A DNA stretch of 64,000 nucleotides from Tribonema minus (Eukaryota; Sar; Xanthophyceae; Tribonematales; Tribonemataceae). The DNA is taken from assembly GCA_017506865.1 (NCBI GenBank), contig JAFCMP010000490.1, positions 496,001 through 560,000 on the forward strand, given 5' to 3'. Of this stretch, positions 20,630 to 64,000 are shown piece after piece (position 1 is the stretch's first letter; each line of letters begins with the position of its first letter). A model generated the notes under the pieces. That model saw only the letters and a program-made list of their open reading frames with translations, was not told where the DNA came from and ran no database searches. The position numbers and the translations under genes are program-made.

Positions 20630-22040
<1,411 letters not shown>

Positions 22041-23597: not shown

Positions 23598-26500
23598 CTG
23601 CACGCCAGACAACGAAATGACAATTAGGGTACAACGTTGACATATGCTCTATGAGTAATCATTTCCCAGCTTGACTGTACTTGTTTGAAGTATGAACAAA
23701 TACATGTAGAAGAACTACATGTAGTGTAGAAGTTGTGTACGCAACACTATTCAGCATGTGCAGACGTGACCGTATCTGCCAAGGCCACCACCCTTGTAAC
23801 ATGGCTGAAATACTTCACTATGATGCCAGTAGGCAGGGCCATCTGGCAGGTCTGGCATGCTCTCACAGCAAAGTCTGTCGGGTTTTGAATTCACGACCAA
23901 ATTGCATGCTTTGTAAAATCAATATTTTTATATTAAACTGCCTAGTGTGTATACATTGTGCAGGGTGTGGTACAGTGTGGACCGAGCTTGCAGTAGGTAG
24001 TTGATCTCTTATGTAATGTGTCATTATATCCCCATATCTGCCAAGGCCTACACCCTTGTAACATGGCTGAAATACTTCACTATGATGCCAGTAGGCAGGA
24101 CCATCTGGCAGGTCTGGCATGCTCTCACCTCAAAGTCTGTCGGGTTTTGAATCGACCAAATTGCATGCTGTCAGATATCAGTATTCTTATATCAAACAGA
24201 GTTGACTGTTGTAAAGAAAGTAAGCGATCACATTCTAATATCTTACACCTACTAGCCTATCAGAACACAGCTTGTACTACGTATACATGGCTGACTGTTG
24301 TAATAAGGTAAGCTATCATGTGCTAATGTCTAACGCATACTAGCCTATACCAGAACACAGCTTGTACTACGTATACATGGCTGACTGTTGTAATAAGGTA
24401 AGCTATCATGTGCTAATGTCTAACGCAAACTAGCCTATACCAGAACACAGCTTGTACTCGTATTAAAGAAATATACATGGCTGACTGTTGTAATAAGGTA
24501 AGCTATCCTGTGCTAATGTCTAACGCAATGTATATACAATAGGCAGTGGTAAATCTAATATATAAATATTGATTTCTGAAAGCTTGCAATTTGGTCGTGA
24601 ATTCAAAACCCGACAGACTTTGCTGTGAGAGCATGCCAGACCTGCCAGATGGCCCTGCCTACTGGCATCATAGTGAAGTATTTCAGCCATGTTACAAGGG
24701 TGTAGGCCTTGGCAGATATGGGGATATGATGACACATTACATAAGAGATCAACTACCTACTGCAGGCTTGGTCCACACTGTACCACACCCTGCACCATGT
24801 ATATACACTAGGCAGTTGTATTATTTAATATAAAAATATTGATATCTGAAAGCATGCAATTTGGTCGTGAATTCAAAACCCGACAGACTTTGCTGTGAGA
24901 GCATGCCAGACCTGCCAGATGGCCCTGCCTACTGGCATCGTAGTGAAGTATTTCAGCCATGTTACAAGGGTGTAAGCCTTGGCAGATATGGAGATATGAT
25001 GACACATTATATAACAGATCAACTACCTACTGCAGGCTTGGTCCACACTGTACCACACCCTGCACTGTTGTAATAAGGTAAGCTATCACGTGCTAATGTC
25101 TACGCAAACTAGCCTATATCAGAACGCAGCTTGTACTCGTATTAAAGAAATATACATGGCTGACTGTTGTAATAAGGTAAGCTATCACGTGCTAATGTCT
25201 AACACAATGTATATACACTAAGCAGGTGCTAATTCGGAGCTGGTAGCAAATCGACATATTGCTGAGCAGCTGTCAATGTAAATAACGTTCTCCGCTACAA
25301 CTGTTGTAACTTTAACGAGTGCATTTACTTTAACATTTAAGGTTAACAGAAGTGTAAACTTTGACATCCGCGTTTACAATTGCGTTTGCTACACATGTAA
25401 AATTTCAATTACTATAATGTTGAGTTGATATTATTCTTTTCAATAATCGTATTTGGGCAGTGTACACTGCATGTACTGCAGACATGGTGACAACAGCACC
25501 AGCGGCCGCAGCGGCTGCTGCACCGGGCGGCGAACGTGGGGCGGCTGCACCCCGGCGGGGTCGGCGCCGCGCCAGCGCCCAAAGCACTGGCAGCGTCACC
25601 CGTCCAGAGCCACAGTCTGGCGGTGCGCTGGCAAAGCCGGTCACCGTGACCATGCCTGTACCGATGGAAGTTGGCGAACCTGGGCCGGCGGGTCACCAGA
25701 GACGAATCACGTCCCGGTCTTTGCAGCCAGCTGGCAGCGGCGCCTCTCTGTCAGGCGGCAGCGTCACCTCTGACGGTAACAGTCGCAACGGGCACCCAAT
25801 ATCCGGCATCACCGCTATGACAGTTTTGGCGCCCGCCAAGACACCCGCTGCCAACCGGAAGGTCAATATCCCGGGGCTGGACTGCCGCATGTGCGACAAG
25901 TTCATAGTGCGAGCAAATCCTCGGGCCCCGGGAAAGAATTGCCCAGCGGCACACGCAAGTGCACACCAGCGCACGCGCCACACAGGGAAAGGGAAGCAAT
26001 TTGCAGAACTGCATGTTCAGCTTTTCCTAGACCACCGACCAATATGCGGCGGCCTGGAGCAGGTCTGCGATGGGTGCGGCAACCTCTTCATCAGACGCAC
26101 AGCAGCAAGCGCCACGACACCATCTGGTGATCTAGGGGCCCTGGACCAGTGCGACGTGTGGCGCTGCGCCGACTGCCTCGCAGGCCCGGTCGCCGCGACA
26201 GCATGCACACTGTCAGGCTGTGACCGTGCATCAGGCCATGATCACATTGCTGACATACACACCCGACCAACGACATGCGCGGCGGCAGCGGGTGGTGCAG
26301 CTGTTGGTGGGGGGAATAGCCTGAAGCCAACAGCCGCGCTGCTCGCCGCCGCTAGCAAATGTGGTCCCATACGCAAAATCCTCGGATGCGAGCACCTGGG
26401 GGTAGACCCCAGGCAAGCCCATGCATCTACGTTGGACGGTGTGGCAGATGCGCCGCTGCCGAGACTGACCCGGAGCAGCACAATGGGTGTGCTGCCTGGC

Positions 26501-29500
26501 GAAAGTCGTGCTAGCGATAGCGGTGCAACGATGTCAAGCAACGATCGTGTGCCCAGCACACCTGGCAGTGCCGCAGCTGCTGTCGCAGCGGGCGCTCAGT
26601 CTAGCGAATGCCCCAGGGACCCGACGGGATCACACTGGCAAGGCCTGCTGGGGGCGGCTGGCGCACTCGCGCGCAGGGTACGTGCACTGGCCCTTGCCCC
26701 CAATCGGGCACGCGTCACGGTGCTTTGCGCTTGGCCGACGGGTACCAAGCTTGGACCCTGCCGCACGTCACGCCGACTGCATATGCGGCCGGCGCCCAGC
26801 GACGCGCCAGCAACACAGACCCTGCTGGGCCGGACTTCCTGCGCACCGCTGGCGAGTCAGATGCATGACCTGACGGTCACGTTCAGCTTGCTCTCCCTCC
26901 GAGAAGAAGGTAATGACCTGGCAACGGTGTTTGACCAACTCTCCCTTAGGGAACCGGTCGTTGCCAGGTCGCCTCGCCAGCCAGCCGGGAAACGTGGTGA
27001 GTCAGACGTAACGCAGGCTGGTGATAACAGCACCCACGCAACAATGACCGAGACAGCACCTGTCACGGCTATGGTTGCCAGTGGAAAGCGCAGTCGACGC
27101 AGAGGTAAACACAGACGGCGGACGCAGGAGCGACAGGCCCAGTGCGACAATTCTCGTGCACCCCTGGCACCAGCCACCACACCGCCGAGGGGCGGTGCCT
27201 CTGCCCCCTCAGCACCAATATCCGGGCCGGCGAAGGTCACCACCGTGACGGTGGCGACCCGGATACCCTCAACCGTGTGCCATACAGTCACCGTGGAGGA
27301 GCAGCAAGACGCGCTGGCAAAAGCCACCAACTATGGTTTTTCCACTTGGCACACGGGCCTGCAGGCACTCCACAAACAGGCGCTTGGGGAAAACACAGCG
27401 ACGCTCGCACGTGGTGGGGAGCTTCGCCCCGTGAGCAACGTGGGCAACGGCAACTGCCTGATTCATACAGCTCTACACGGCATAGGCAGCGTCGCAGTTG
27501 AGCACGGACTGCCGGCCCCAGCACTGGTGATTGCCATGCGAGAGGCACTGCTGGACGGGATGGTGGCATACGTCACGCAGGGGGCGGGCAAACAAGGGGC
27601 CAGCATGTCATCGATGCGTCAACTGACCGCGCATGCAGCAGCCCAACCTGCGTGTACACGTGAACAATTCGACACGTACGGGACACGCGCTCGCTGCCTC
27701 GCAATCGAGTACGGCACAAATGAAACGGACAGCGCGGACAGCGGGCACACGCTCCTGCTGCAACGCCTACAGGAAGAGGGCGTGTGGGGACGGCCCCTCG
27801 GTTTGTCTGTGTGGGCCATTGTTGCAGCGGTCTACGCGGTCTCGGTGACGGTGTGGCAGGCCGAGCCTCAGGCCACTGGCAGCACGCAAAAATCAACAGG
27901 GCTGGTGCTGGCACAACTGATGGGGCTACCAGCGGTATTCGCACCGGTAACTCCAGCTCAGCCTGACTGCCATCTGGATGTGCTGTGGACGCCGCCTGGG
28001 CTATATACAAATGTGGGACACTTTGAACTGCTTGTCGCCCCTGCGGCAGCTCCGCCCTTGCCAACCACTATGACAGCGTCGGCGACCACTCAAGCTAACA
28101 GCACCCACATCACGGCTCCGAGTCGGACACAGCCCCGTACTGCGCTACAGTTGCCACAGCAGCCTGAGCCACTGAGGTGTCCTTTATGCACACTGGCATT
28201 TTGGCAGCTTGGTCAGAAAGAGGACAGCAAACAGCGAGGCAAACTGTCAGCTGCGAGCCGCATGGCACCGGTAGTGGCCCACTTCAACGGTGGTAGCTGC
28301 ACGAGGTCGATGCTGAACCCTGAGGCGAGCACATCACACTGTCAGCAAAATCTGGCGGCAGCATACGCCAAGGGCATCCGGCAGCAGGTTGATCACGACC
28401 CATCCGGTGACCGTGCCCCTTCAGGCAGCAGTACCTGCAACACTGGGGCACACCATGCCAAGCGTGTGCAGGAGATGAGCACCATGTATGGTTGCACGGC
28501 AGAAGACTTCCTACGGGCGGTAAGGAAGCTGAGTGCATGCACAGGTGCCTGCGGTCTGGTCCATATGTCAGCCAGCGCGGGGCAGAGGCAATGCGCGCTG
28601 ACCTCGCCATGCCACACGTGTCGACGGAATGGAAGCGCCCCCACGCGCGCACGCCCGGCAGTACCCCCGGGCCAGTCCGAGGGCGGGGGTGCGGGTAGCG
28701 ACGGCGCGGCCGCGGCGGCGGGGGCTGCCGCAGCGACACCTCCAAAGCCACCGGCGGTGCCGGCTAGTGGCGCTGCCAACTCAAAGTCCAGCAAGAAACG
28801 CCCGGCGGCCACGGCAACCGGCGCGCAACGCCGGCGCCGAACGGCAGCTGCTGCGGCACCGCCTGGCAGCGCCGGCAGCCGCACTCAGTCTAACAGCCTA
28901 AGGCTGCAGGACAGCAGCCCCCCCCACGGGACGGCCGTGGGATGGGCGGACATGGACTTGGACCCGCCGGACGATGCCGCGTCACCGCCCCCCCCGACCA
29001 CCACCACCAGTGGCAGGCCCTCAAAGCCCCAGTCACGAGCATCCCTGGCTTGGGACCTCTCGACGCCCTCGGTCGTCCACGCACTTGACCAGACCGATGA
29101 GGCGGATCTACTGCTGCTACGGTTCACCACGACTGCCAACCCCTTCCGCACTCAGCTGCAGTGCACCCAGTGGGCACGGCTAGTGGAGCACGCCACACGA
29201 CTACTGGCGGACGCCACAGACAGTGCACGTGAGGCGGCACGGGTGCGCCTCCACCATGGTGCCGGGGCGTTTGCTCATCAGGTTTCTCAGACTCTAGTGC
29301 AGCGCGGCTACAGGCTGCTGCACCTGCTAGCAGCAATGGCCTTCGGTAGGCAACCGGAGGGAACCGGTATGCCGCCTGCGGCCCGGCTGGCAGCGTTGCT
29401 GTCTGGCGACTTCGCGGAGCTACTGAGAAAGACGCTGTCAGCAGCAGCGGCGCTGCGGGCCCCCAAACCAAACAACGCAGCTACGGCGTCGGCACAAACG

Positions 29501-32500
29501 AACTTCGATGCCGACTGGACGGAGGCTGACTCCAGGCAGCAAACAGCATGCGCTGCCCTCTCAGGCAAGCGACGGGGGGTAGGCCTGGCTGCCGCACGAC
29601 TAGAGGCGCGTGAAGCATGCGCCCCAGCAGACGAGGTCACCGCACAGGTGCTGGCAGCAAAGCACCCTGAAACTGGCACCCGGCCCGGGGTAGTCGATAC
29701 GCCAATGGAGCAAGTGCGCGGCCTGGTACGCGACGCCCGGCGGCACTGCTTGCACGGCGCAAGGGTGGCAACGACCGCCGGGCCCGCTGGCAGCGGCAGT
29801 CCCGTCTTCGAATCGGGTCAGGCGCATGATCGCAGCGATAGGCCTGAGGATGCTGCCAGCGCAGCCGGACGGCGCCTCGAGGTGGAGGCGACAGACATAC
29901 TGTCGACCTTGTCCGCAGCAGGGGCGGGGAAGGCAGGAGGGCTGGACGGCCTACGCTATGAACACCTCTTGATGGCCGCTGGGCCTGGTGCACCAGTGAA
30001 AGCAGCCACCCGCCCTGTGGGCAGTGCCTCGCCAGGACTAGCTGGTGATTCAGAATCGGATGTGATGGAACCGGCATTCGCCCATCACCTGGCCAAGGTG
30101 TTCACGACGCTGCTTGTTGAGCCCGAACTGCTGCCGGAGCAATCGCAACGGCTTCTCCGCGCCGCGGCCCTCTCAGGCATAGGACAGAAGCGGCGTCCGA
30201 TCGCCTGCTCCAGTGTCTGGCGCAGACTCCTCGGGTCCACAGCGGCACGGGGTGTCAAGGGCAAAATATCGGGGCTGCTGGCCTCCATGTCGCAGTTTGG
30301 CGTAGGATACCGGTCTGGCGTCGAGCATGTGGCAGCGCGCGCGCGCGTGTGGCACGAGCTGTATGGCACCACAATCCAGCTGGACTGTGAGAACGCATTT
30401 AACAGTGTGGATCGCGCCGCCATTGTGCGGGGACTTATGCTCTTCTGTCCGGAGCTGCTCCCGCACTTTGAGTCCGTATACTGTGGTGACACTGCCCCAG
30501 AGATGCGAGTGGAGGTGAACGGTGAAGCTCGCATTATCTGCTCCCACCTAGGGTGCCAGCAAGGGGACCCTCTAGGGCCGCTGTACTTTGCAGTGGCAGC
30601 GGCCTTCCTACTCTTCTACCCTGATGGAGTGAATGCGACGCCCGGCAGTATGCCGGCCTACGGCCACAGCACAGCGGAACCGCCAGCCCCGCACTGCGCT
30701 TTCCTGGATGACCTCAACGTGCTGCAAGCTGCCTACTTCGACGATGCAGCGGCCGCTGGGGTGGCAGAGGTGATCCGTCGGCTTGCGGCAGGGGGCCTAC
30801 GCGTTCGACCAGACAAGTCGCTGGCCATTGCCATGCGCGGCACAGTGTTTGATGAAGCGGCCAGAGCACGCCTGCGCGCCCTTGACATACCGTTTGTGGA
30901 CGCCACCATGCCAGAATCCAGTCAGGGCTTTACGTCGGTCGGGGTACCGGTAGGGCACCCAGCCTATGTGCATGCTGCCATGAGCAAGCATCTTGTTGAC
31001 GCAGGGACATGGCGATTGTCGTGGCAGCTAGCTGGGATGGCGCGGCATCACCTACAGGCAGCACAGTTCATTCTGCGCAGGTCACTGACGAAGCGGATGG
31101 GCTTCTTAGCTCGGGTCGTTGACACGGCTTTGAGTGAGACATGGCTGCACGCATTTGACGGGTTCTGTGCATGGACGCTTGAACGCATGCTGCACCTGCA
31201 CGGCTGCGCTACCGCGGCAGTCATGAAGTCACACCTGCTGGCCGCCTGCACTGCTGGTGACAATGAGGTAGCCAGCAGTGGCAGCGTGCTGGTATTGCCG
31301 CGCTTGGGCCCGCCAGAACTCACGGACATCGCAGTGCCACTGCGGGCGTCACGGTTGCCGGAGCGACGAGGCGGTCTGGGCATGCCGCTTTTGGGGCTAC
31401 TGGCACCAGCCGCATACACGGCCCAGGCATGCACAACACTGCGGCCTGCAATAATTCATGCCACTGTGGCAGCAGGGGCCCTGAGGCTCGGCACTGACGA
31501 ACACGGCGCAGTCACCTGGTTCGCGCAGCACTCATGCGCAATACGCGAGGACCAGGGACTGCCGCCAATCATCGAGGCCGTGCGACGCTCTACGCGAGCG
31601 CTGACAGCTGATGGCGGCGAAAAATCACGCACAGCTGTGGCCGAGCAGCTCCCAGCATCGTTGCTACGGTGGGCAGCGGATACAACGGCCGCAGCGTCGA
31701 CGCTCCCCACTGCGGTGCAAGCGATCTACGCCGCCACTGCCGTCACGGAGACGGGGACCACTGAGCCAGCCCCACACACCCACGGCATTGTGCCTGGCGC
31801 CGAGGCGGCCGCTGCGGCGGCGACCGTACCTGGCCCTCAAGCCGCTGCCGCGGCTGCCTCTTCCACGCCCGCTAAAACACAAACTAGCGCGGAAGAAAGC
31901 AGCTGCAGCGGCGGGCAGGAGGACGACGACGACGACTGGGAGGCCTATGCTGACGAGATCTGCAGAAAGGTAGTGCCCCGCCGCCGGCGCGGTCACTTCA
32001 CGCACGGACTACAAGCCCGCCTTTCAAATGTTCTTCGACGTCAATACGAGGACTGCCTGGTGGAGGACCTAGAGACTGCCTCGGCTGGTGCCGTGGGCAA
32101 GCCGACGCAGGCTACACTTATTGGTGACTTGCGTGACACCAGCCGCCGCCGCCAACAGGCTAGCGCGCGGGTCCTGGCGCAGCTGCGCAGCCAGCGTGCG
32201 TCCGGGGCAATGGCGTGGATGAGCGTGCCACCCGCTGCCAATGACCGCCCGGGTGCGGCGCCCATGTCCAGTATGGCAGCAGCCACGATGATTATGGTTG
32301 CGATCTTTATAGACGGGTGGGGCATACAGGGCGAGGTGTGCCCATGGCGGTGCAGTGACGTGAGCCCCACCTCCACGCATGCGATCAGCTGCCCCAGCCA
32401 GCACATACGGGGGCACAACGCGACACACACTGCCCAAAAGCGGTGCCTACAGCGCATCTTGAGACAGCACCATGTCTCTATTGTCCGCAATGAGGACGCT

Positions 32501-35500
32501 AGCGTCTTCAAGGTACCGGGGTATCGGGCGGACACAGTCATTGACCCAGGGTGTCTGCACTTTAGCAGTGCATACCGTAACAAGGGAATAGTGCTAGACA
32601 CAAGTGTGCGCGCGCCCACAGCGAGCTCGTACCTGACAGGCAAAACAAATGCCTCGAACACGGACGGCTATGCTGCTGGGGTGGGGGAGGACGCGAAGGT
32701 CAAGCACCACACCGGCACCTTGACGTCATCTTGGGCTTTTGTGCCATTCGTGCAGGAGTCGTACGGACGGCTGGGCAAGCAGACAAGCCTTTTTGTTAAG
32801 GAGTTGGCAATGCACTCAGCACTGTGCTCAGGGGGGGGGAAGGCAGATGTGTTACGCAAGGCCGGGTTAGCTAAGCGTCAGATCCTCATTGAGCTGAGCA
32901 TATCGCTGGCGCGGGAGTTGGCGGAGCGCGTCATGGCATACACACGTGGAGCGCGAATGCTGGGCTGTGTTGCGGCGCCGGTATCCAAACTCCTAGGGCA
33001 CAGCGCAGACTAGGCTGCTGCGTTGACGCAAGCTTTTCGATTGCATAGGCAACCCGGCCTCCCTTGGGCCTTTATAAATACAAGTCCATACGTACACTGC
33101 GTCAAACCACACGCATAATTACATTCACTTTGACATGCTGAGCATTAAAAAAACGGTGGTTGAATATTGTGGGAGTTGAACCCACTACTGTCGACTAACA
33201 AGAGTTCCTTGCATCAGCACCCTATGTGTATCAACATGTATGCAGGGCACGCTGAGGCTACTTGTGAGGTGGGAAGTCAACCATAACAGTAATGCAACAT
33301 GCATGGCAGTACTCACAATGTAGATCTGGATGCTGCCGTCCTCGCTCCTGGCAAAGACCAGCGACGCCTTGTTGCCAAAGTACGACAGCCCACGCTCCGG
33401 CACGTCTGCTGAAGCGCGCATGTTGAGGTAGAGGCTCAGGGCTGCGACATCGTACCCGTTGAACCCCTCCTCGATCAGGTCCCCCGCCAGCTGCTTGCCG
33501 ATGTCCGTTATAAGGTGGTCCCCCTGCCGCGCGCGCACCTGCACTCTGCGTCCCTTGGGCTTGTTTTGCTGAAGAAGCGGCAGGCAAACCGCCATGAGCT
33601 CGCCCAAGGAGGAGTTCCGCCGTGCTAGGTGGGTCAGGATGGCGTCGCGGAACGGGAACCATACGCCTTGCTCCAACGTCGCCCACATTGTTGCATAGAG
33701 CTCCGTTGAGTTTCCTGTAAGGGCAACCTCCCGTCCTGCTCCTTCTTGGCGTTCATCTGCGACTCTGCCGACTCCTGCGCCTGTAGTTCCGGACCTGGTT
33801 GCTGAACCGCTCGTGCAGTGCTTCTTGAGCTTCGCCAGGTACGTTCGGACATCATCGGTGAGAACATGAAAGGAGGTAGCTCCCATAGCGTGGGTCGCTT
33901 TACTGTTGAGGCCGTTGAGCGACGTCATCGACCGATTGCCAGCTATGCTTGCATCATCACCGGTGCCGACGTTGTTGGCATCGCACCCAGTGTCGGTGCA
34001 TTTGACGAGGTGCTCGACACGGCTCACGGGGCAGCAGTTGATACCCTCGCCGCTCAGCAGACGGAGTAGAGCTTGAGGAAGCTCTTTCCTAACCTGGTTG
34101 CAGCGCATGGATCGCAGAGCATGATATCAGATGTGAAGGTGGCAAACTGTTGTGTGGATGATGGAACATGCAGAAGAAAAGTGAGACTACCTTTGTCATT
34201 TATGAAGCTAATGTCTGAGTAGCTGCAAACATTGTAGAAGGGCAGACAGTCATGAATTGAGGTGTATTGGAAGTCTCCTGCTGCCAGCTTGAGAACATGT
34301 TAGACCTGAGGATCGCCTGATGAGCACAATTCACATGAACATGACTTGCACACTGTGCGAGCGGCATGTGTTGAAGGTGAGAGACCGGAGAGTATCATGA
34401 TCCTACGAAACGCATTGCATCATGATGATGGTTGCCATACTAGTGTATGCCAAGTCGCTAATAAGTAGTAACACTGCAAAGGTCTCTCTAAGACGCACAC
34501 ATGCTTAGCATCAAACGCATATGTCAATAGGGACTTTGGCGACTGCAACGTATGTATGACGGTAAACCTACACAGCTGCCCATAGAGACAAATGTGGTGT
34601 TGCAGCAGAGCAACCATAGAATTGCATGATCAGATGACGTGGCTCAGTCATTGCAAGTGCGTAGAATGGTGTCATTGAGCAGATAATACATCAAGCTTGT
34701 CGCTGCTGATTCTGTATACCAACTCAGAATCTCAAGCTTCGCTACCAAATGCAAGGGACGCTTAAGGTTTAGCATGCCGTAAGACAGGCATTCTGTGCAA
34801 ATGTGAAGTAACATATTGCTTTTTGATTGCTTGCACATTGTGAATGCAGGCTACGATAGGACAAGATGATTCAAGTCGTACCTCATCTGGAGGTTGGGGA
34901 AATGGAGTCGCCGTCGAGCTCTCATCCGGGCAGACTAGCTCCGGCGCGACGCGTCGCTTGACCAGTGCCATCTCAGTGGTTGACATCGGTATAAACATCG
35001 ATGATGAAGTTGGAATGCGGTTGAGGCTCGACACCACCAGCAGGAGCTTGATGACATCGTCGACGGCGTTGTTGTTTTTGCTGTTGAGAGTCCACTCTGG
35101 GTGAGCCATGAGGTCGTAGGTGTTGAACTGCGCCATTGTGAGCTTGGGCCAGTCGTAGTTGACGTAGAGCTCCGTGGCGCTCTCTGCTCCAAAGCGATGG
35201 CCGATCTGCTGGCGCAGTAGGTCGCCGCATTTGAGGCTGCTGATGACGGCCAGAGCCTTCCCGCCACATCTCTGTGTAGGCGCAGCACTACCCTCGGCAA
35301 TGGGCAGGTCGGTGAAGCAGGATTCTTGTGTGTTGGTGTGCTCCGAGCGGAACTTCTGGTCTGGGTCATGTCTGTGCCTGCGATCATACATGCGCAAACA
35401 CAAGCATCTTGAGTGCACAGCCCATGCGTCACAAAGGCAGAAACTGAGGAGAGTAGAAACTTAACGAAATTCTAATGTTTGACGTACATTACACATGCAC

Positions 35501-51369: not shown

Positions 51370-52000
51370 CCGGGTACAGTTCATACCACTGGTGACAAGG
51401 CTACGTATAACCGTGTAAGTTGAGAAGCTTAGGAGCCTTAGAGTATTACATGTGCAGATGCTACTTCACGCAGGCCCCTCTTGCCCCGTGTACAGCAGCA
51501 GTCCAGTACGCCCCGCAGATATTAGCTCCCTGGGCCGCAGTCCAGAAACAATATAAAACTAGTACCAGACCTGAAATATCAGAGTATGTACAGTTATGGT
51601 CTCTGAATGCTATTCAACATGGGCACATCTTGCGCTACTTGCAGCAAAGCTCCATCGTGCACGAGCACATCAGCTCCCCCGCGCGCAGTCCAGGAGCAAA
51701 TGCACAATCAGTAGTAGACTTGAAACAACAGGCAGAGATCATTGAAAGCGTGCACGGCACGCTGTTCTCAGGATGTAAGCAGACTTTTGTGATAAGGCTC
51801 ATGTTCGGTTGGCTAACCTTGGTGAGTCGGCAGTTGCGCGTACTGTCACAATCCCTGTGCTTGTTAACGACCTGCACAGAGCGAGAGCATGAGAGGATAC
51901 ATGTTGATGCCGGCCTTTGGTATATACAGCAATTGAGTGAGGAGCGCAAGAGTGTAAGAAAGCGAGTGTCTGTGCATCGAATCAGAGATGGCAAAGCGCG
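51370..52000. repeat. Satellite fragment and repeat R copy
   Basis: 51580-51735 has a satellite type-2 unit (GAGTATGTACAGTTATGGTC, CACATCAGCTCCC); 51740-52000 is repeat R. Confidence 0.5.
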
Positions 52001-52640
52001 CACATCATCTCCTGCGCGCGCAGTTCAGGTATGAATGCAGCACCAAGTAGCAGACTTGACACTATAGTTACTACCACCGTTGCGTGCGCCGTTTGCAGCA
52101 ACGCTCCACTGTGCTCGAGCACATCAGCTCCCGTGTGCGCAGTTCAGGCATGAATGCAGCACCAAATAGCAGACCTGAAATATTAGAGTTTGTACAGTGG
52201 TGGTCTCTGAATGCTACCCAACACTCCATTGTGCACAAGCACATCAGCTCCCACGCGCGCAGTTCAGGCATGAATGCAGCACCAAGTAGCAGACTTGACA
52301 CTATAGCTACTACCACCGTTGTGTGCGCCGTTTGCAGCAACGCTCCACTGTGCACGAGCACATCAGCTCCCGCGCGCGCAGTTCAGGCATGAATGCAGCA
52401 CCAAGTAGCAGACCTGAATTATTAGAGTTTGTACAGTGGTGGTCTGAATGCTACCCAACACTCCATTGTGCACGAGCACATCTGCTCCCGCGCGCGCAGT
52501 TCAGGCATGAATGCAGCACCATGTAGCAGACTTGACACTATAGCTACTACCACTGTTGCGTGCGCCGTTTGCAGCAAAGCTCCACTGTGCACGAGCACAT
52601 CAGCTCCCGCGCGCGCAGTTCGCGCATGTGCGTCTAGGCG
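52001..52640 (+). repeat. Modular satellite array 1
   Basis: Alternating units of about 110-120 bp. Type 1 contains CTATAGCTACTACCACCGTT and CGCCGTTTGCAGCAACGCTC; type 2 contains TTAGAGTTTGTACAGTGGTG and CTGAATGCTACCCAACACTC. Both share GAGCACATCAGCTCCCGCGC and CAGTTCAGGCATGAATGCAG followed by CACCAAGTAGCAGAC. Order here: 1,2,1,2,1. Confidence 0.85.
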
Positions 52641-58830: not shown

Positions 58831-58837
58831 CACGCAG

Positions 58838-59395
58838 TTCAGGCATGAATGCAGCACCAAGTAGCAGACCTGAAATATTAGAGTTTGTACAGTTGTGGTC
58901 TCTGAATGCTACCCAACACTCCATTGTGCACGAGCACATCAGCCCCTGCGCGCACAGTTCAGGCATGAATGCAGCACCAAGTAGCAGACCTGAAATATTA
59001 GAGTTTGTACAGTTGTGGTCTCTGAATGCTACCCAACACTCCATTGTGCACGAGCCGTTTGCAGCAAAGCTCCACTGTGCACGAGCACATCAGCTCCCGC
59101 GCGCGCAGTTCAGGCATGAATGCAGTACCAAGTAGCAGACCTGAATTATTAAAGTTTGTACAGTGGTGGTCTCTGAATGCTACCCAACACTCCATTGTGC
59201 ACGAGCACATCTGCTCCCGCGCGCGCAGTTCAGGCATGAATGCAGCACCAAGTAGCAGACTTGACACTATAGCTACTACCACTGTTGCGTGCGCCGTTTG
59301 CAGCAAAGCTCCACTGTGCACGAGCACATCAGCTCCCGCCCGCGCAGTTCAGGCATGAATGCAGCACCAAGTAGCAGACTTGACACTATTGACGG
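58838..59395 (+). repeat. Modular satellite array 2
   Basis: The same type 1 and type 2 units as 52001-52640, in the order 2,2,(part of 1),2,1,1-start. One junction (about 59050) fuses CACGAGC directly to CGTTTGCAGC, showing a recombination between unit types. Confidence 0.85.
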
Positions 59396-60301
59396 AACTA
59401 TAACACCGTGGCAGAGTAGGACACCCAAGGTGGACCCAATGCAAAGTGCAGAACAGCACTAGACCAGGGCAGGCTGGTATTGCAAAGAAGTGATTATTGT
59501 GCAGGAGCGTGAGCAAGCGGAGAAATAGCCCTGAGTCAATGGCGGAACAGTACCGGACTGGTGCTGGAACATGCAGTGGTGGACTAACAAGAGAAACTCC
59601 CAGAATGGGGAGAAACCTGTGTAGGTATGCATGCACATGCAAGTAGGTTATGTAGGTATCATACTCCGTCACCCTCCCTCAGTACGAAAGCCGTGTGCTG
59701 AAGTACTGAAATGCAAACATGCAGGTATGAGCCGGGTGTGCTCCTTGATGTGCAACGGTGTGCATGCTAACTGGTGTAGCAACCAGTGTGTACTCTGAAA
59801 ACCTGGATTAGGCACCAGTGTGTACTGCAAGTGCGAACGGCGTGCTGCCGTGTGAAACTTGAGTGTGCGCCGCTTGATCCCTGCGGTTGTAGCTGCTGTT
59901 GAAGCTGAGCTGATGGTGTTTGACGAAGCTGATGAAGCTGTCGTTGAAGTTGTTGTTGAAGCTGAAGTTGGAGCTTGACATTGAAGCTGAGGTTGCTGCC
60001 TAGATGCCCATGATGAAGGCAGTGTGTGTGCGGTGAGCCGTGCGGTGACACTGGGTTGTGTCACCTGTTTCAACGGTCTGTTCTTCAAGGGCCGTTCCGA
60101 GACAGTTCTTGACAGTTACAAAAGTTGAGGTTGGCGATCACTTCGGAGTGAGCGATAGCCTGATAACACACACACACTTGCTCGAGTGCTGCTGTGAGTG
60201 TCAGTGTGCTGTCTGCTCTGTTTGTCAGTGCTCACGTGCAGTGCAAGCACATCATTTGGTTTACAGCCTATGCCATATATGAATTCCACACCGCACCGCA
60301 G
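59396..60301. other. Upstream region of the Gag-protease-methyltransferase element
   Basis: 59890-60000 has repeated GAAGCTGA/GTTGAAGCT blocks. No LTR or primer-binding site is recognised. CACCGCACCGCAG at 60289-60301 may be an acceptor, since the Gag frame has no ATG downstream of 60194. The N-terminal Gag part must lie in an upstream exon or outside my recognition. Confidence 0.4.
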
Positions 60302-60568
60302 GGCCGCGCATGCTTCAACTGCGGCAGCCTCGACCACGGCTTCGTCAGGTGCGGTGCTGACTTCAACAGCGCAAATTGGGAGGCAGCTGTCAGGAGGCTA
60401 CCTTGGGTCCAGAAGTTCAAGCCGAGCAGTGACGAGGACTTCAAGCAGCTGTGCGCGCGCGCGGCGGAAGGCATCAGCAAAGGGGAGAGGGGCAAGTCGG
60501 CACTGGCAGCGCACAACCGCCGCGGCGGCGGCGGCGCGAGCCGCGGCCATGGCGGCCGCAACACCTAG
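60302..60568 (+). CDS. Gag C-terminus with CCHC zinc knuckle (5' end not found)
   Basis: The frame is open from about 60194, but I start at a likely acceptor. The knuckle CFNCGSLDHGFVRC (60311-60352) is a perfect C-x2-C-x4-H-x4-C nucleocapsid motif. Downstream FNSANWEAAVRRLPWVQKFK and DEDFKQLCARAAEGISKGER lead to a basic Arg/Gly tail (NRRGGGGASRGHGGRNT), as expected of an RNA-binding Gag end. The frame stops at TAG 60566-60568; the next codons continue the same frame as the protease-methyltransferase polyprotein. Capsid sequence was not found upstream. Confidence 0.7.
   Translation, partial: GRACFNCGSLDHGFVRCGADFNSANWEAAVRRLPWVQKFKPSSDEDFKQLCARAAEGISKGERGKSALAAHNRRGGGGASRGHGGRNT
60566..60568 (+). 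promoter_or_regulatory. In-frame amber codon between Gag and protease (possible readthrough site)
   Basis: TAG followed by GGGGTGCGG sits exactly between the Gag tail and 3.4 kb of open sequence in the same frame. Gammaretrovirus-type elements use UAG-G readthrough plus a downstream structure; the GC-rich sequence here could fold. An error or mutation is the alternative. Confidence 0.45.
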
Positions 60569-63500
60569 GGGTGCGGCCCCACGCCAGCCCTCGGCGTGGG
60601 GGGAGCACTTGGGGGTTCTAGTGTCGCGGGGGGCGGGAGTGACGCCCCGCCCCGGACGACAGTCAGCGCGCTTGACGCGCCCGCGGTTGCAGCAGCTGCT
60701 CAACAGCAGCAGCAGCAGCAGCAACCGCTCGTGGTTGCAGCGGCGGCTTCACAGCTGCGGCAGCAACCGCACCATCTCTCCACAACAGCGGCGCCGGCGA
60801 GCGCCGCCTCAGCCGCGGCGACAGCGGCGCCTGCACCGGCGGGCGCCGCCTCAGCTGCGGCGGGCACAGCTTCTGTGGTGGCGCCGACACCAATCGCGAC
60901 GTCTGCAACAGCTGCGCTACAACACGCTGCGACGGCAGCAGCGCTCAAAGGCGCTACGCCGCTCGCGACGCATTCTTCTGCTGTGACGGCGCCGGCGAGC
61001 GCCGCACACGCAGCAGTAGCGCAACGGCCCGGGAGCGCTGTGGCACCAGCAGCGCCCGCGGTACCATCCTCTCTGCGTGCAGGTAACAGCTTGCGTCCCA
61101 CCGCCTTGCCCTTCGTACCAGCATCGTCACCAGTGGCTCAGCAGCGCCCGTGGCACCGCCGCGCGGCGCAGCAAGACCTTAAGACGGCTGGATTCGCGAC
61201 CCCCTACAGTCATTCCGCGGCTGCTACGGCGACGCGCGGGACAGCTGCGGTTCAGCGCGGCACGCCGGCGCGGCGCGCTTCAGCGACCAGCGCCGGCGCA
61301 GGGGACGTGCGCGGTCAAGGGGGGGTGGGGGCTGCCTCAGTAACTGCGGCAGCAACACCAACGACGGGGGCTGCCTCAGCAACTGCGGCAGCAATACCAA
61401 CAACGGCGGCGCCCGCGATGGCGCACGCTGCATCTACTTCAGCATTGGCTCCAGAGTCCACGTCGGCACCATCTACTTCAGCACCACCCACTTCAAGGGT
61501 AGCCGCGCGCGACGCCGTCAGCGCCACCCTCATCAAAGGCGCGCTGGTGACTTACTTGAAGCAGGGTGCAGCAGAGGGCGAGCCTGCCAAGATCCTTGCG
61601 GTGCACACCGAAGCTGACGAAGACCCATACTACACCGTGCTGCTGCTGCGCTCCTGCCAGGAGCGGCAGACCGACGCTGCACACTTGCGCCTCTGCCAGC
61701 ACGCTGCGCCATCAGCGACGGCAGCTGCTGCTGCTGCTGCTGCTGCGGCGGCGGCGGCGGCGCCGGCAGCGCCGGCACAGGCAGCAGCGGCGGCGGCACC
61801 GGTGCCGGCAGCGCCGGCAGCACCGGCAGCAGCAGCGGCGGCTGCGGCGACGCCAACGGCAACACACTCAACTGGCACCGATCGCTGCGGCAGCAGCCAC
61901 GCCTCGGCGCACGCGCAATGGGCAGACTTCAAGGCATGCGCAGCGCAGCGACAAGCGCAGCAGCAGGAGACCAAGGCACGCTCTCAGCGCCAGCTGCAGG
62001 CGAGCGTTGACGACAACGAGTGGGCCGGCCTGGTCACACCAACGTTGCATCATAGTGGGGGTTCCACTACGCTGGCCGATGTTGCGGAGGACGGATTGGA
62101 CAGCTTGGGGCGTGACGAGGCAGCGGTGGACGCGGCGCGTGTGACGGCATACATCAATGGCCTCATCTCAGCGCTCTACACGCCAGAGAGTCGTACGCGC
62201 GGCCCCGGTGCCAGCGATGCTGCCATCTTCCAGTACTATGCTGAGGTGGTAGCGTTGGAGGCGCAGCTACTTCCGCTGACCCAGCAGGTCGAGCCAGGCA
62301 AGCTGCGCGGTTCTGTGCATGCTGACGTGCACTCCCTTTTCCGGTGCAAGCTGCGCTCCGCCCGCGCCACGCGCTGCTCATTCATCAAGCGCAGTCTGTG
62401 GGACTCTGGTGCGTCCGTCACTGCTATTTCACAGCGCTGCTATGAGCGCCTCGTGGCTAGTGGTGCCATTGACAGCGCTGACGTCCAGAAGCTAACTGCC
62501 CCTCGAAGCATTGCCGGTATTGACACGAGCGCTGCCCCGCAGAAGGTCACCACCATTGTGGCTCTGCACTTTGGCGCATTCGGCGCGCATGGCCTTTCCG
62601 CACCCGTCATGGCGCTCGTGGTGCCGCATTTGCCGTACGACTTTATTCTGGGGCGCGACTTCATCAACCGTCACCCCTGGACTGCGGTCAACACACCCTT
62701 GTACGGCAGTAGCATCAACGACTCCGAACCACCTGGTAGCACCGAGTACAGGTTCAGCAGCACCCCTCCACCTGCCCAGCCCACACGTAGTGACTCAGCG
62801 GCCTCCCCATCTCCCTCAACCCCGTGCTACGCGTACGACACGGACAAGCAGTGGGTCGCTGTGGTGCGCGTGGACGCGAATTCACCGGAGACACCTTCAG
62901 AGTCCACCTTTCCTGTGTGGATTCAGGTTATGGAGGCAGACGGCGTGACACCAGTGCAGGCCTCGGCGGAGCAGATGGTGCAGGTTCTGGTGACAGCGGC
63001 ACACGCAGGTACTATTGCCAGCACAGAGCTCGCTACGGGCACCTTTGCCAAACCAGTGCTACTGCAGCAACGCGCCAACGCTTCCCTCAACCTGCCACGT
63101 GGCACAGTGCTCGGCAAGGCGATCCCGCTACGCAGTGTACCGGCCAGCAGCATGCAGCGCGAGCACGGCGAGCGCCCGCGCGCGGTCGAGATCTACTGCG
63201 GCGCCTGCGGTATGGCTGAAGGTCTACGCGACTACACCGACATCGCGCTCGCCATCGACCACGAGCAGCGCGCACTAGACATCTATGCCGCAAACCATCC
63301 CGGCACGCAAACATTGCGACGCGACATGGCGCTGTCGGAAACGCGGCGCGAACTCATCGCGGCTATGCGGCGCCTGCAGGCGCAGGTACTCTTCGGCGGA
63401 CCACCATGCACGCGCTACTCGTATGCAGGCACGCGGCTGACTGCACTTGGCATCCAACACCTATATTACATGCTGGAGATTGCCATGGGCGCGGACTGCT

Positions 63501-64000
63501 GCCGCCTGCTTCTGCTAGAGAACGTTCCCGGCTTGCAGAGCGCGCCGGAGCTCGCAGAGTTCTTGCGCTGCGCTCGCCACGGTGGTTTCACGCTACAGGA
63601 GGCATTGTACGTACGCGGCGATGACGCGCACCTCGCGCAAACGCGCCACCGCGTGTTCTATGTGCTAGCGCGGCCCGGCAGCGGCGAGCACGACAGCGCG
63701 CGCATGCGCGCGTCCATGGCGCACGCGCGCGAGCTGCTGGCCTTCGCCAAGGCTGGAGCCGCGTACGAGTCAGTGCGTGAGGTCACCGGGGACGTTCCCG
63801 ACAGCAGCGGTCAGCAGCGGCAGTTCTTCACGTCAGTTGGCCGCAACCGTCTCTCCAAGCAGATCTACAGCATGGACGGACCAGCGCCGACTACGCGCGG
63901 CAGCACTTACCGCCGCGACCCCAAGCCCACTGGTGTACAGTGCACCATGCGTCCTATGGATGCCACTCAAGACCCGGCCGAGTTTGCGCGCTCTGAGCAT
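60569..64000 (+). CDS. Retroelement polyprotein: retropepsin plus C5-cytosine DNA methyltransferase (continues past right edge)
   Basis: 1,144 codons without a stop. After an Ala/Gln/Pro-rich linker with poly-Gln and poly-Ala runs comes a retropepsin: LWDSGASVTAIS (Asp codon 62402-62404) and DFILGRDFI (62639-62665). Next is a spacer, then a methyltransferase in normal motif order: I EIYCGACGMAEGL (63188), II/III AIDHEQRALDIYAANHPG, IV LFGGPPCTRYS with the catalytic Cys at 63407-63409, VI LLENVPGL (63515), VIII QTRHRVFYVLA (63640), then SMDGPAPTTRGS (63874). The enzyme would methylate cytosine C5 in DNA. Motif IX/X helices, and any RT, RNase H and integrase, lie beyond the window. Cytosine methyltransferases captured by retrotransposons are known from some dinoflagellate and charophyte algae, so there is precedent for the type but not for this architecture as far as I know. 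Confidence 0.9.

Follow-up and report, generated by a model that had tools for sequence, protein, structure and literature searches.

Introduction

Retroelements that carry a cytosine DNA methyltransferase (DNMT) are known from few lineages. De Mendoza et al. 2018 (PMC5890265), drawn on here in excerpt like the other papers cited, described SymbioLINE-Dnmt and SymbioDIRS-Dnmt3 of Symbiodinium and KnitGypsy-Dnmt3 of Klebsormidium nitens, and reported that the retrotransposon DNMTs of known cases can methylate CG de novo. Here, we report on a Ty3/Gypsy retrotransposon of Tribonema minus (Xanthophyceae, Stramenopiles) that begins near the right edge of a stretch of 64,000 nucleotides, the window of this analysis (positions 496001–560000, forward strand of contig JAFCMP010000490.1, hereafter C490). 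We consider it probable, at roughly 60%, that the element makes by stop-codon readthrough a Gag-Pol polyprotein with a C5-cytosine methyltransferase (MTase) between protease and reverse transcriptase (RT), that this enzyme marks the element's own copies, and that the benefit is host tolerance or protection of the cDNA. Judged from sequence, the anatomy, the insertion with a target-site duplication (TSD), the many copies, the conserved UAG, the complete MTase under constraint and a second MTase-bearing lineage are in place. An initial annotation of the window had proposed that a retrotransposon polyprotein here carries a C5-MTase of its own; long terminal repeats (LTRs), TSD, RT, RNase H, integrase, related loci and purifying selection bear this out, and its remark that retroelement DNMTs are known from few lineages agrees with the 2018 paper.

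Like KnitGypsy-Dnmt3, the T. minus element is a Gypsy element with LTRs whose Pol contains a C5-MTase; both occur in several copies and are under purifying selection, for which the ratio of nonsynonymous to synonymous substitution rates (Ka/Ks) of KnitGypsy-Dnmt3 is given as below 0.2 (PMC5890265). By its description, KnitGypsy-Dnmt3 has a Dnmt3-derived enzyme and DIRS-like repeats (PMC5890265), and this sets T. minus apart. Its elements have ordinary terminal LTRs and a TSD (both of the two insertions read end to end), gave no match named DNMT3, carry a UAG between Gag and Pol in the lineage of the window copy (group 1), inhabit a stramenopile and hold the MTase at two positions. Membership in the DNMT3 family or in KnitGypsy-Dnmt3 was therefore rejected, on the plain LTRs with TSD and on the lack of a DNMT3-named solved chain at E ≤ 10. 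The Symbiodinium elements share with those of T. minus a retroelement C5-MTase, hundreds of copies, RT-like selection and more than one arrangement per genome (PMC5890265). They are, however, DIRS elements with a tyrosine recombinase or LINEs, with enzymes of the Dnmt3 or an orphan family (PMC5890265), whereas the T. minus elements have LTRs and an rve-type integrase with a zinc-binding domain, and no LINE or DIRS machinery.

Other described systems are less alike in enzyme or in element. The chromodomain and Tudor Gypsy elements of Ectocarpus are likewise stramenopile Gypsy elements with chromatin-reader domains, and a homologue of the Tudor type is reported in T. minus, but the excerpts describe no cytosine methyltransferase in them (PMC12477816). 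DIRS elements with a Dam-like methylase also carry a methyltransferase as an accessory domain, although that enzyme is an adenine-N6 methylase structurally unrelated to cytosine DNMTs (PMC5890265). DNMT3 in LTR Copia and DIRS elements is mentioned in a 2025 paper (PMC12344493). Morozov et al. 2019 proposed antiviral roles for transposon methylases and counted Stramenopiles among the hosts of retrotransposons with adenine or cytosine methylases, naming no case in the part drawn on (PMC6338049). Elements of the T. minus type are not described in the excerpts of a paper on DNMTs of Stramenopiles, Alveolates and Rhizaria (SAR; PMC9998398) or of the one on Ectocarpus transposable elements (PMC12477816), and the open-access literature in PMC, with subscription papers and preprints outside its scope, yielded no report of a C5-MTase retrotransposon from Tribonema or other xanthophytes. 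With the present elements, a stramenopile joins the hosts of retroelements that encode a cytosine methyltransferase. The enzymes here look unlike DNMT3, and one genome holds two domain orders, which suggests that retroelements have captured MTases more widely than the systems of 2018 showed.

Structure and insertion of the element

The genome searched comprises 158 Mb in 554 contigs. A protein listed publicly as T. minus (P0030) matches it on C540 in two neighbouring places, at 100% over residues 13–262 and at 99% over residues 258–483, the second match with two internal stops such as an intron would produce; the host is therefore T. minus or a very close strain. Two light-harvesting exons fit an alga with chlorophyll a/c: FCP chains are the best match of one, whereas for the other multi-repeat LHCI chains rank first, followed by ACPI and CAC chains. 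Pfam matches were judged against curated bit cut-offs, and structural matches were sought with Foldseek; the Ka/Ks, motif, CpG and hairpin results are sequence computations. Positions beyond 64000 are given as extended coordinates, the window numbering carried on along C490, an 840-kb contig that continues unbroken through the right window edge.

The retrotransposon, on the plus strand, has both ends and runs from 60041 to extended coordinate 69249, with the window stopping inside it. Comparison of the LTR pair placed the 5' LTR (214 bp, TG...CA) at 60041–60254 and the 3' LTR, 99.07% identical to it, at extended 69036–69249 (C490:565036–565249). The 4-bp TSD GCCG stands at 60037–60040 and directly behind the 3' LTR. 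Behind the 5' LTR lies a remnant of Gag (60255–60565), its C-terminal part with a CCHC knuckle at about 60311, in which no Pfam match was found. An in-frame UAG (60566–60568) and a predicted RNA hairpin just 3' of it (60570–60609) follow. The Pol frame starts at 60569, fills the rest of the window to 64000 and, stop to stop, reaches extended 68857 (2763 aa). It holds a retropepsin-like aspartic protease at 62396–62671 and the C5-MTase, whose motifs I to IX lie at 63176–64000 and whose domain as taken ends at extended 64156.

By Pfam, the order in Pol is protease, MTase (PF00145), RT, two RNase H models, integrase zinc-binding domain, integrase core and a borderline chromodomain. RVT_1 (E 8.6e-22), RT_RNaseH (1.5e-33) and Integrase_H2C2 (9.3e-18) were clear; the integrase core rve (E 1e-7) fell 0.1 bit under its cut-off, and the chromodomain PF00385 behind the integrase (E 4.5e-5, 23.7 bits) under its cut-off of 25.1 bits. 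LTRs, which the initial annotation had proposed to look for on extension to the right, were thus found, as were RT and integrase within the next 5 kb, in the same frame as RNase H and the borderline chromodomain. Of the two profiles it had named, PF00145 scored above its cut-off, but the retropepsin profile PF13975 did not (E 5.7e-4, 20.9 bits against 28.2), with DSGAS at 62402 and ILGRDF at 62645. From the LTRs, the TSD and a Pol order with integrase last, the element is placed as Ty3/Gypsy (Metaviridae-type).

Around it lies a Ty1/copia element in minus-strand orientation, into which it inserted. This outer element occupies 59390–64000 and continues beyond the window, with LTRs at 59390–59671 and 73419–73700 and with domains of copia Gag, integrase and RT. 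Its LTRs are 98.6% identical, which indicates that both insertions are fairly young. A second complete insertion of the MTase element, L056+L044, has 233-bp LTRs that are 100% identical, the TSD CACT, a Gag frame of 1090 aa and a Pol frame of 2758 aa.

The Gag-Pol boundary

The initial annotation had read Gag, protease and MTase as one open frame. Retropepsin and then MTase do follow in frame from 60569, and the CCHC knuckle is in the phase of Pol, but the TAG at 60566–60568 cuts the knuckle off. A single Gag-MTase frame was therefore rejected; the claim was wrong for Gag because of this in-frame UAG.

The pattern CACCNNNGGGTGCGACC, with the stop bases left open, occurred at 63 sites in the genome and at 2 for a reversed control. 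TAG was read at 62 of the 63 sites and TCG at one; the site of the window copy, which departs from the pattern at one base, is outside the 63. A group-1 MTase was listed 1.9–4.5 kb downstream of 46 of the 62 TAG sites, with 16 sites lacking one, in a comparison that used 63 of the 118 rows of one MTase list. Behind the stop, a hairpin of 5+9 bp was predicted in three copies, with two pairs double-compensated between subfamilies A and B of group 1. Its fold-energy z-scores over 101 nt were −1.45, −1.20 and −2.58, and no slid version of the hairpin kept more than 57.1% of cells paired. The conservation of UAG at 62 of 63 sites together with the 3' hairpin suggests stop-codon readthrough, which is most likely the route to Gag-Pol in group 1. 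In three copies of a second lineage (group 2), Gag, MTase, protease and RT all lie in a single frame.

The methyltransferase domain

The window MTase matched PF00145 with an E-value of 3.1e-15 (56.9 bits against a cut-off of 22). We assigned motif numbers to its stretches on the assumption that they correspond to those of known C5-MTases: I at 63182, IV (PPC) at 63395, VI (ENV) at 63518, VIII (QTRHR) at 63638, IX at 63878 and X at extended 64100, just beyond the window edge. Motifs I, IV, VI and VIII in canonical order had been noted before; IX and X now join them. The MTase had also been placed directly after the protease, and the order holds, but about 170 residues separate the two Pfam matches. 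A structure model (mean pLDDT 83.8, pTM 0.84) matched Schizosaccharomyces pombe Dnmt2, M.HaeIII, Arabidopsis MET1, mammalian DNMT1 and M.HhaI in Foldseek, at E-values of about 1e-13 to 1e-11 and TM-scores to the model of about 0.55–0.65. The domain thus carries a complete motif set with a predicted C5-MTase fold, and catalysis on DNA is predicted.

Among 30 loci examined, motifs VI, VIII, IX and X shared one frame in all 30, and no stop stood between motifs I and X in 29. Motif IV reads SPPC in L021–L025 (also in L044), with the cysteine retained.

The bacterial Dcm-type model TIGR00675 matched at E 2.9e-14, under its cut-off. In profile searches of solved chains, an E. coli prophage DNA MTase, DNMT1 and Dnmt2 matched group 1 about equally, and Dnmt2 chains ranked top for group 2. 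At E ≤ 10, group 1 matched 50 distinct sequences of solved chains and group 2 matched 26, none of them named DNMT3, in a search run without a positive control in a library that we take to hold DNMT3 chains; likewise, none of the best 50 of 149 Foldseek matches at E ≤ 0.001 was named DNMT3. Dnmt2 being among the best solved-structure matches by profile and by fold, and filling the top rows for group 2, a Dnmt2-like enzyme could act on RNA, methylating the element's genomic RNA or tRNA primer and so stabilizing the RNA or aiding priming. We regard this as unlikely: group 1 matches the prophage DNA MTase and DNMT1 about as well, and M.HaeIII likewise by fold, and two DNMT2 sequences stay outside the element enzymes in our tree, although the separating branch is weak (62/97).

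Used as a query by itself, the group-1 MTase matched 582 proteins at E ≤ 0.001. The best 120 of these were led by nine relatives from jgi and ena sources (P0004–P0012, 34–82% identity), and the matches listed include one T. minus protein (P0030); the group-2 MTase gave five relatives. When the MTase region of the polyprotein was compared with 5.8 billion proteins of 0.55–1.75 times its length, none of 5732 candidates reached E ≤ 0.001. On viral contigs, the group-1 query identified 101 confirmed loci, the best 80 of which had 18–37% identity, and the group-2 query gave two loci resembling ordinary prokaryotic C5-MTase pairs.

The genome's strongest PF00145 matches are three loci, L001, L002 and L003 (contigs C223 and C181), with stand-alone C5-MTase frames of 367–390 aa, possibly of viral or bacterial origin; L001 and L002 form a long branch of their own in the tree.

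Copy number and lineages

The merged lists hold at least 270 distinct MTase loci, to which a later search added 20, for at least 290 in all; this count includes fragments and a few loci with no shown link to an element (e.g. on C223, C181 and C523). Further genomic copies, a point left to be checked by the initial annotation, are therefore abundant, and hundreds of full or partial copies in T. minus appear to encode a DNA-methylating enzyme.

Pairing of RTs with MTases used 92 of 118, 131 of 135 and 58 of 123 rows of three MTase lists, the rest being repeated places or fragments, and the 20 later loci, absent from the earlier lists, came from a further pairing round. From the RT lists, 11 of 145 and 2 of 142 rows were removed as second fragments of the same RT; the resulting figures count matches, not elements, and some matches share one MTase (e.g. 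two on C522). Group 1, defined by an RT at least 60% identical to that of the window, comprises subfamilies A, B and C, and 70 of its 80 RT matches had a listed MTase within 4 kb upstream (16/16 in A, 41/48 in A/B, 13/16 in C). For group 2, the figure was 109 of 140 within 4.5 kb, or 120 of 140 with the later loci, which brings both groups together to 190 of 220. None of 54 distant Gypsy RTs (36–37% identical) had an MTase among the loci listed before the 20 were added. The spacing between MTase and RT was nearly constant, with a median of 925 bp in A and about 1.5 kb in A/B and C. The same order of Gag, Pol and MTase was seen in copies with 99% identity elsewhere in the contig set. Five A2 copies were 99.95–100% identical over 4 kb, which indicates that the family moved recently.

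The two groups differ in where the MTase stands: behind the protease in group 1 and ahead of it in group 2 (subfamilies D, E and F, represented by L045, L046 and L047), an order established by Pfam for L045 and by protease-like landmarks for L046 and L047. The RTs of the two groups are 32–35% identical, and the group-2 MTases have 21–24% identity to that of the window. In a tree of 37 sequences, each group formed a clade (support 100/99), and the two were joined at 62/97, with the bootstrap not settled. The two positions may reflect one MTase capture followed by a positional move, or two captures. The jgi and ena proteins, probably from environmental sources, fell within both groups, and P0012 carries protease and MTase together; the element type is thus probably not confined to this strain.

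The presence of the MTase in most RT-linked loci and in two lineages, and its resemblance to bacterial Dcm-type enzymes, would also suit a defensive or competitive weapon that keeps a host nuclease off the cDNA or combats DNA viruses, along the lines proposed in the excerpts of PMC6338049. Such a role predicts no particular position in Gag-Pol, however, and neither a nuclease partner nor a viral link turned up, in work that included no dedicated search for them; we give it little probability.

Selection and condition of the window copy

Between A1 and A2 copies, the MTase was as constrained as RT-RNase H, with Ka/Ks values of 0.07 and 0.075. The integrase gave 0.10, the protease 0.11 and the chromodomain region 0.12, against 0.62 and 0.57 in two linkers of low complexity. 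Deeper pairs, in some of which Ks is near saturation, gave 0.135–0.232 for the group-1 MTase and 0.117–0.126 for RT-RNase H (A–B); in the E–F pair, the MTase gave 0.19, with RT and integrase saturated. These low values indicate that the MTase has most likely been kept for a function. Ks itself was uneven along A1 and A2 (L012 vs L044): 0.40–0.49 from protease to MTase, 0.17–0.24 from RT to chromodomain and 0.11–0.28 in the linkers. The drop at the MTase/RT boundary is as expected if A1 and A2 had recombined and their 3' halves been swapped by template switching.

A short non-repetitive stretch at 61541–61693 (ALVTYLKQG...TDAAHLRL) had a Ka/Ks of 0.04 between A1 and A2. By eye, it and another stretch behind the chromodomain look like small reader domains of the SH3/Tudor type; neither has a Pfam match.

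Compared with L056+L044 and the 99%-identical L051, L052, L053 and L055, the window copy has a deletion just behind its 5' LTR that took away the primer-binding region together with most of Gag. Its motif I reads GACG, alone among the 30 loci; one other locus reads YFGAGG, and the motif-I glycines are retained in 28 of the other 29, the exception being L026 (SAGG). With this deletion and this motif I, the copy is probably not autonomous, its Pol frame open nonetheless. The same two defects would fit an MTase that is a passenger or structural relic without catalysis, but across the family Ka/Ks stays at 0.07–0.23, motifs VI, VIII, IX and X are kept in 30 of 30 loci, and nearly identical young copies exist, so that a relic is quite improbable. 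That an assembly artefact or chance join had brought Gag-protease and MTase segments together, for which only the window edge speaks, is refuted by the unbroken 840-kb contig, the dozens of recurrences of the MTase-RT pair at a nearly constant distance, and the 99%-identical copies on other contigs.

Signs of methylation and proposed mechanism

In the self-marking model, Gag would be translated on its own, and occasional readthrough of the UAG, aided by the 3' hairpin, would give Gag-Pol with the MTase in it. The element's protease might then free the MTase, or the MTase might stay beside RT in the particle. The enzyme could next methylate freshly made cDNA, or the site of integration, and copies would arrive already marked; DNMT5, HELLS and CDCA7, reported from the host, could keep these marks in place. 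The element would probably gain host tolerance, or a protected cDNA, and not a direct escape from silencing.

In keeping with self-methylation, CpG sites of seven A1 copies showed more transitions (14/834) than other G/C positions (9/1740; P = 0.006). Several observations weigh against the model. Only this one of four CpG-transition tests was positive: no excess was found in 15 B copies (44/753 vs 105/1697, P = 0.78) or in 12 recent B copies (4/787 vs 7/1772, P = 0.75), and the A2 copies were too alike and too young (0/820 vs 1/1755). A truncated copy, L018, was excluded from the substitution count. CpG depletion, considered as a sign of self-methylation, was rejected because the element does not have it, with a CpG observed/expected ratio of 0.998 against 0.859 for the whole window; the MTase region reached 1.25. 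The signs of self-methylation are thus indirect and mixed. The case for readthrough is made by conservation and by a hairpin in three sequences, effectively two independent ones, so that the hairpin evidence is suggestive only; its covariation score was reached by 50 of 500 shuffles, and two of the three fold-energy z-scores were no stronger than −1.2 to −1.45. The window copy itself is probably not functional.

The host makes the model of interest beyond the element. In one survey, as excerpted here, T. minus was the sole SAR species with CDCA7, beside DNMT5, DNMT4 and HELLS (PMC10538959), which makes it a natural place to test marks written by elements and kept by the host. Extended to the genome, the two Gypsy lineages would write CG or other marks on incoming copies and supply much of the de novo methylation, with the host mainly propagating it through DNMT5, CDCA7 and HELLS; the methylome of T. 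minus would then have parasites as its authors and the host as its keeper, an extension that we hold to be unlikely. These elements may in any case take part in writing the very marks by which such parasites are usually silenced, and the conserved UAG with its predicted hairpin suggests a way, open to experiment, of setting how much MTase is made per Gag.

Other features of the window

Elsewhere in the window, a plus-strand open frame of 2529 aa at 25424–33010 had a weak RT match (RVT_1, E 1.3e-6, 0.9 bit under the cut-off) and a stretch reading VGNGNCLIHTALHGIG, which we take to resemble an OTU protease motif; by its sequence, the frame probably belongs to an element of the non-LTR type that carries a protease as an accessory. 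Tandem-repeat arrays with a unit of 119–120 bp lie at 52000–52628 and at 58835–59389, the latter adjoining the nested elements. A further plus-strand frame, at 20661–22037, has C2H2 zinc fingers encoded by 90-bp tandem repeats.

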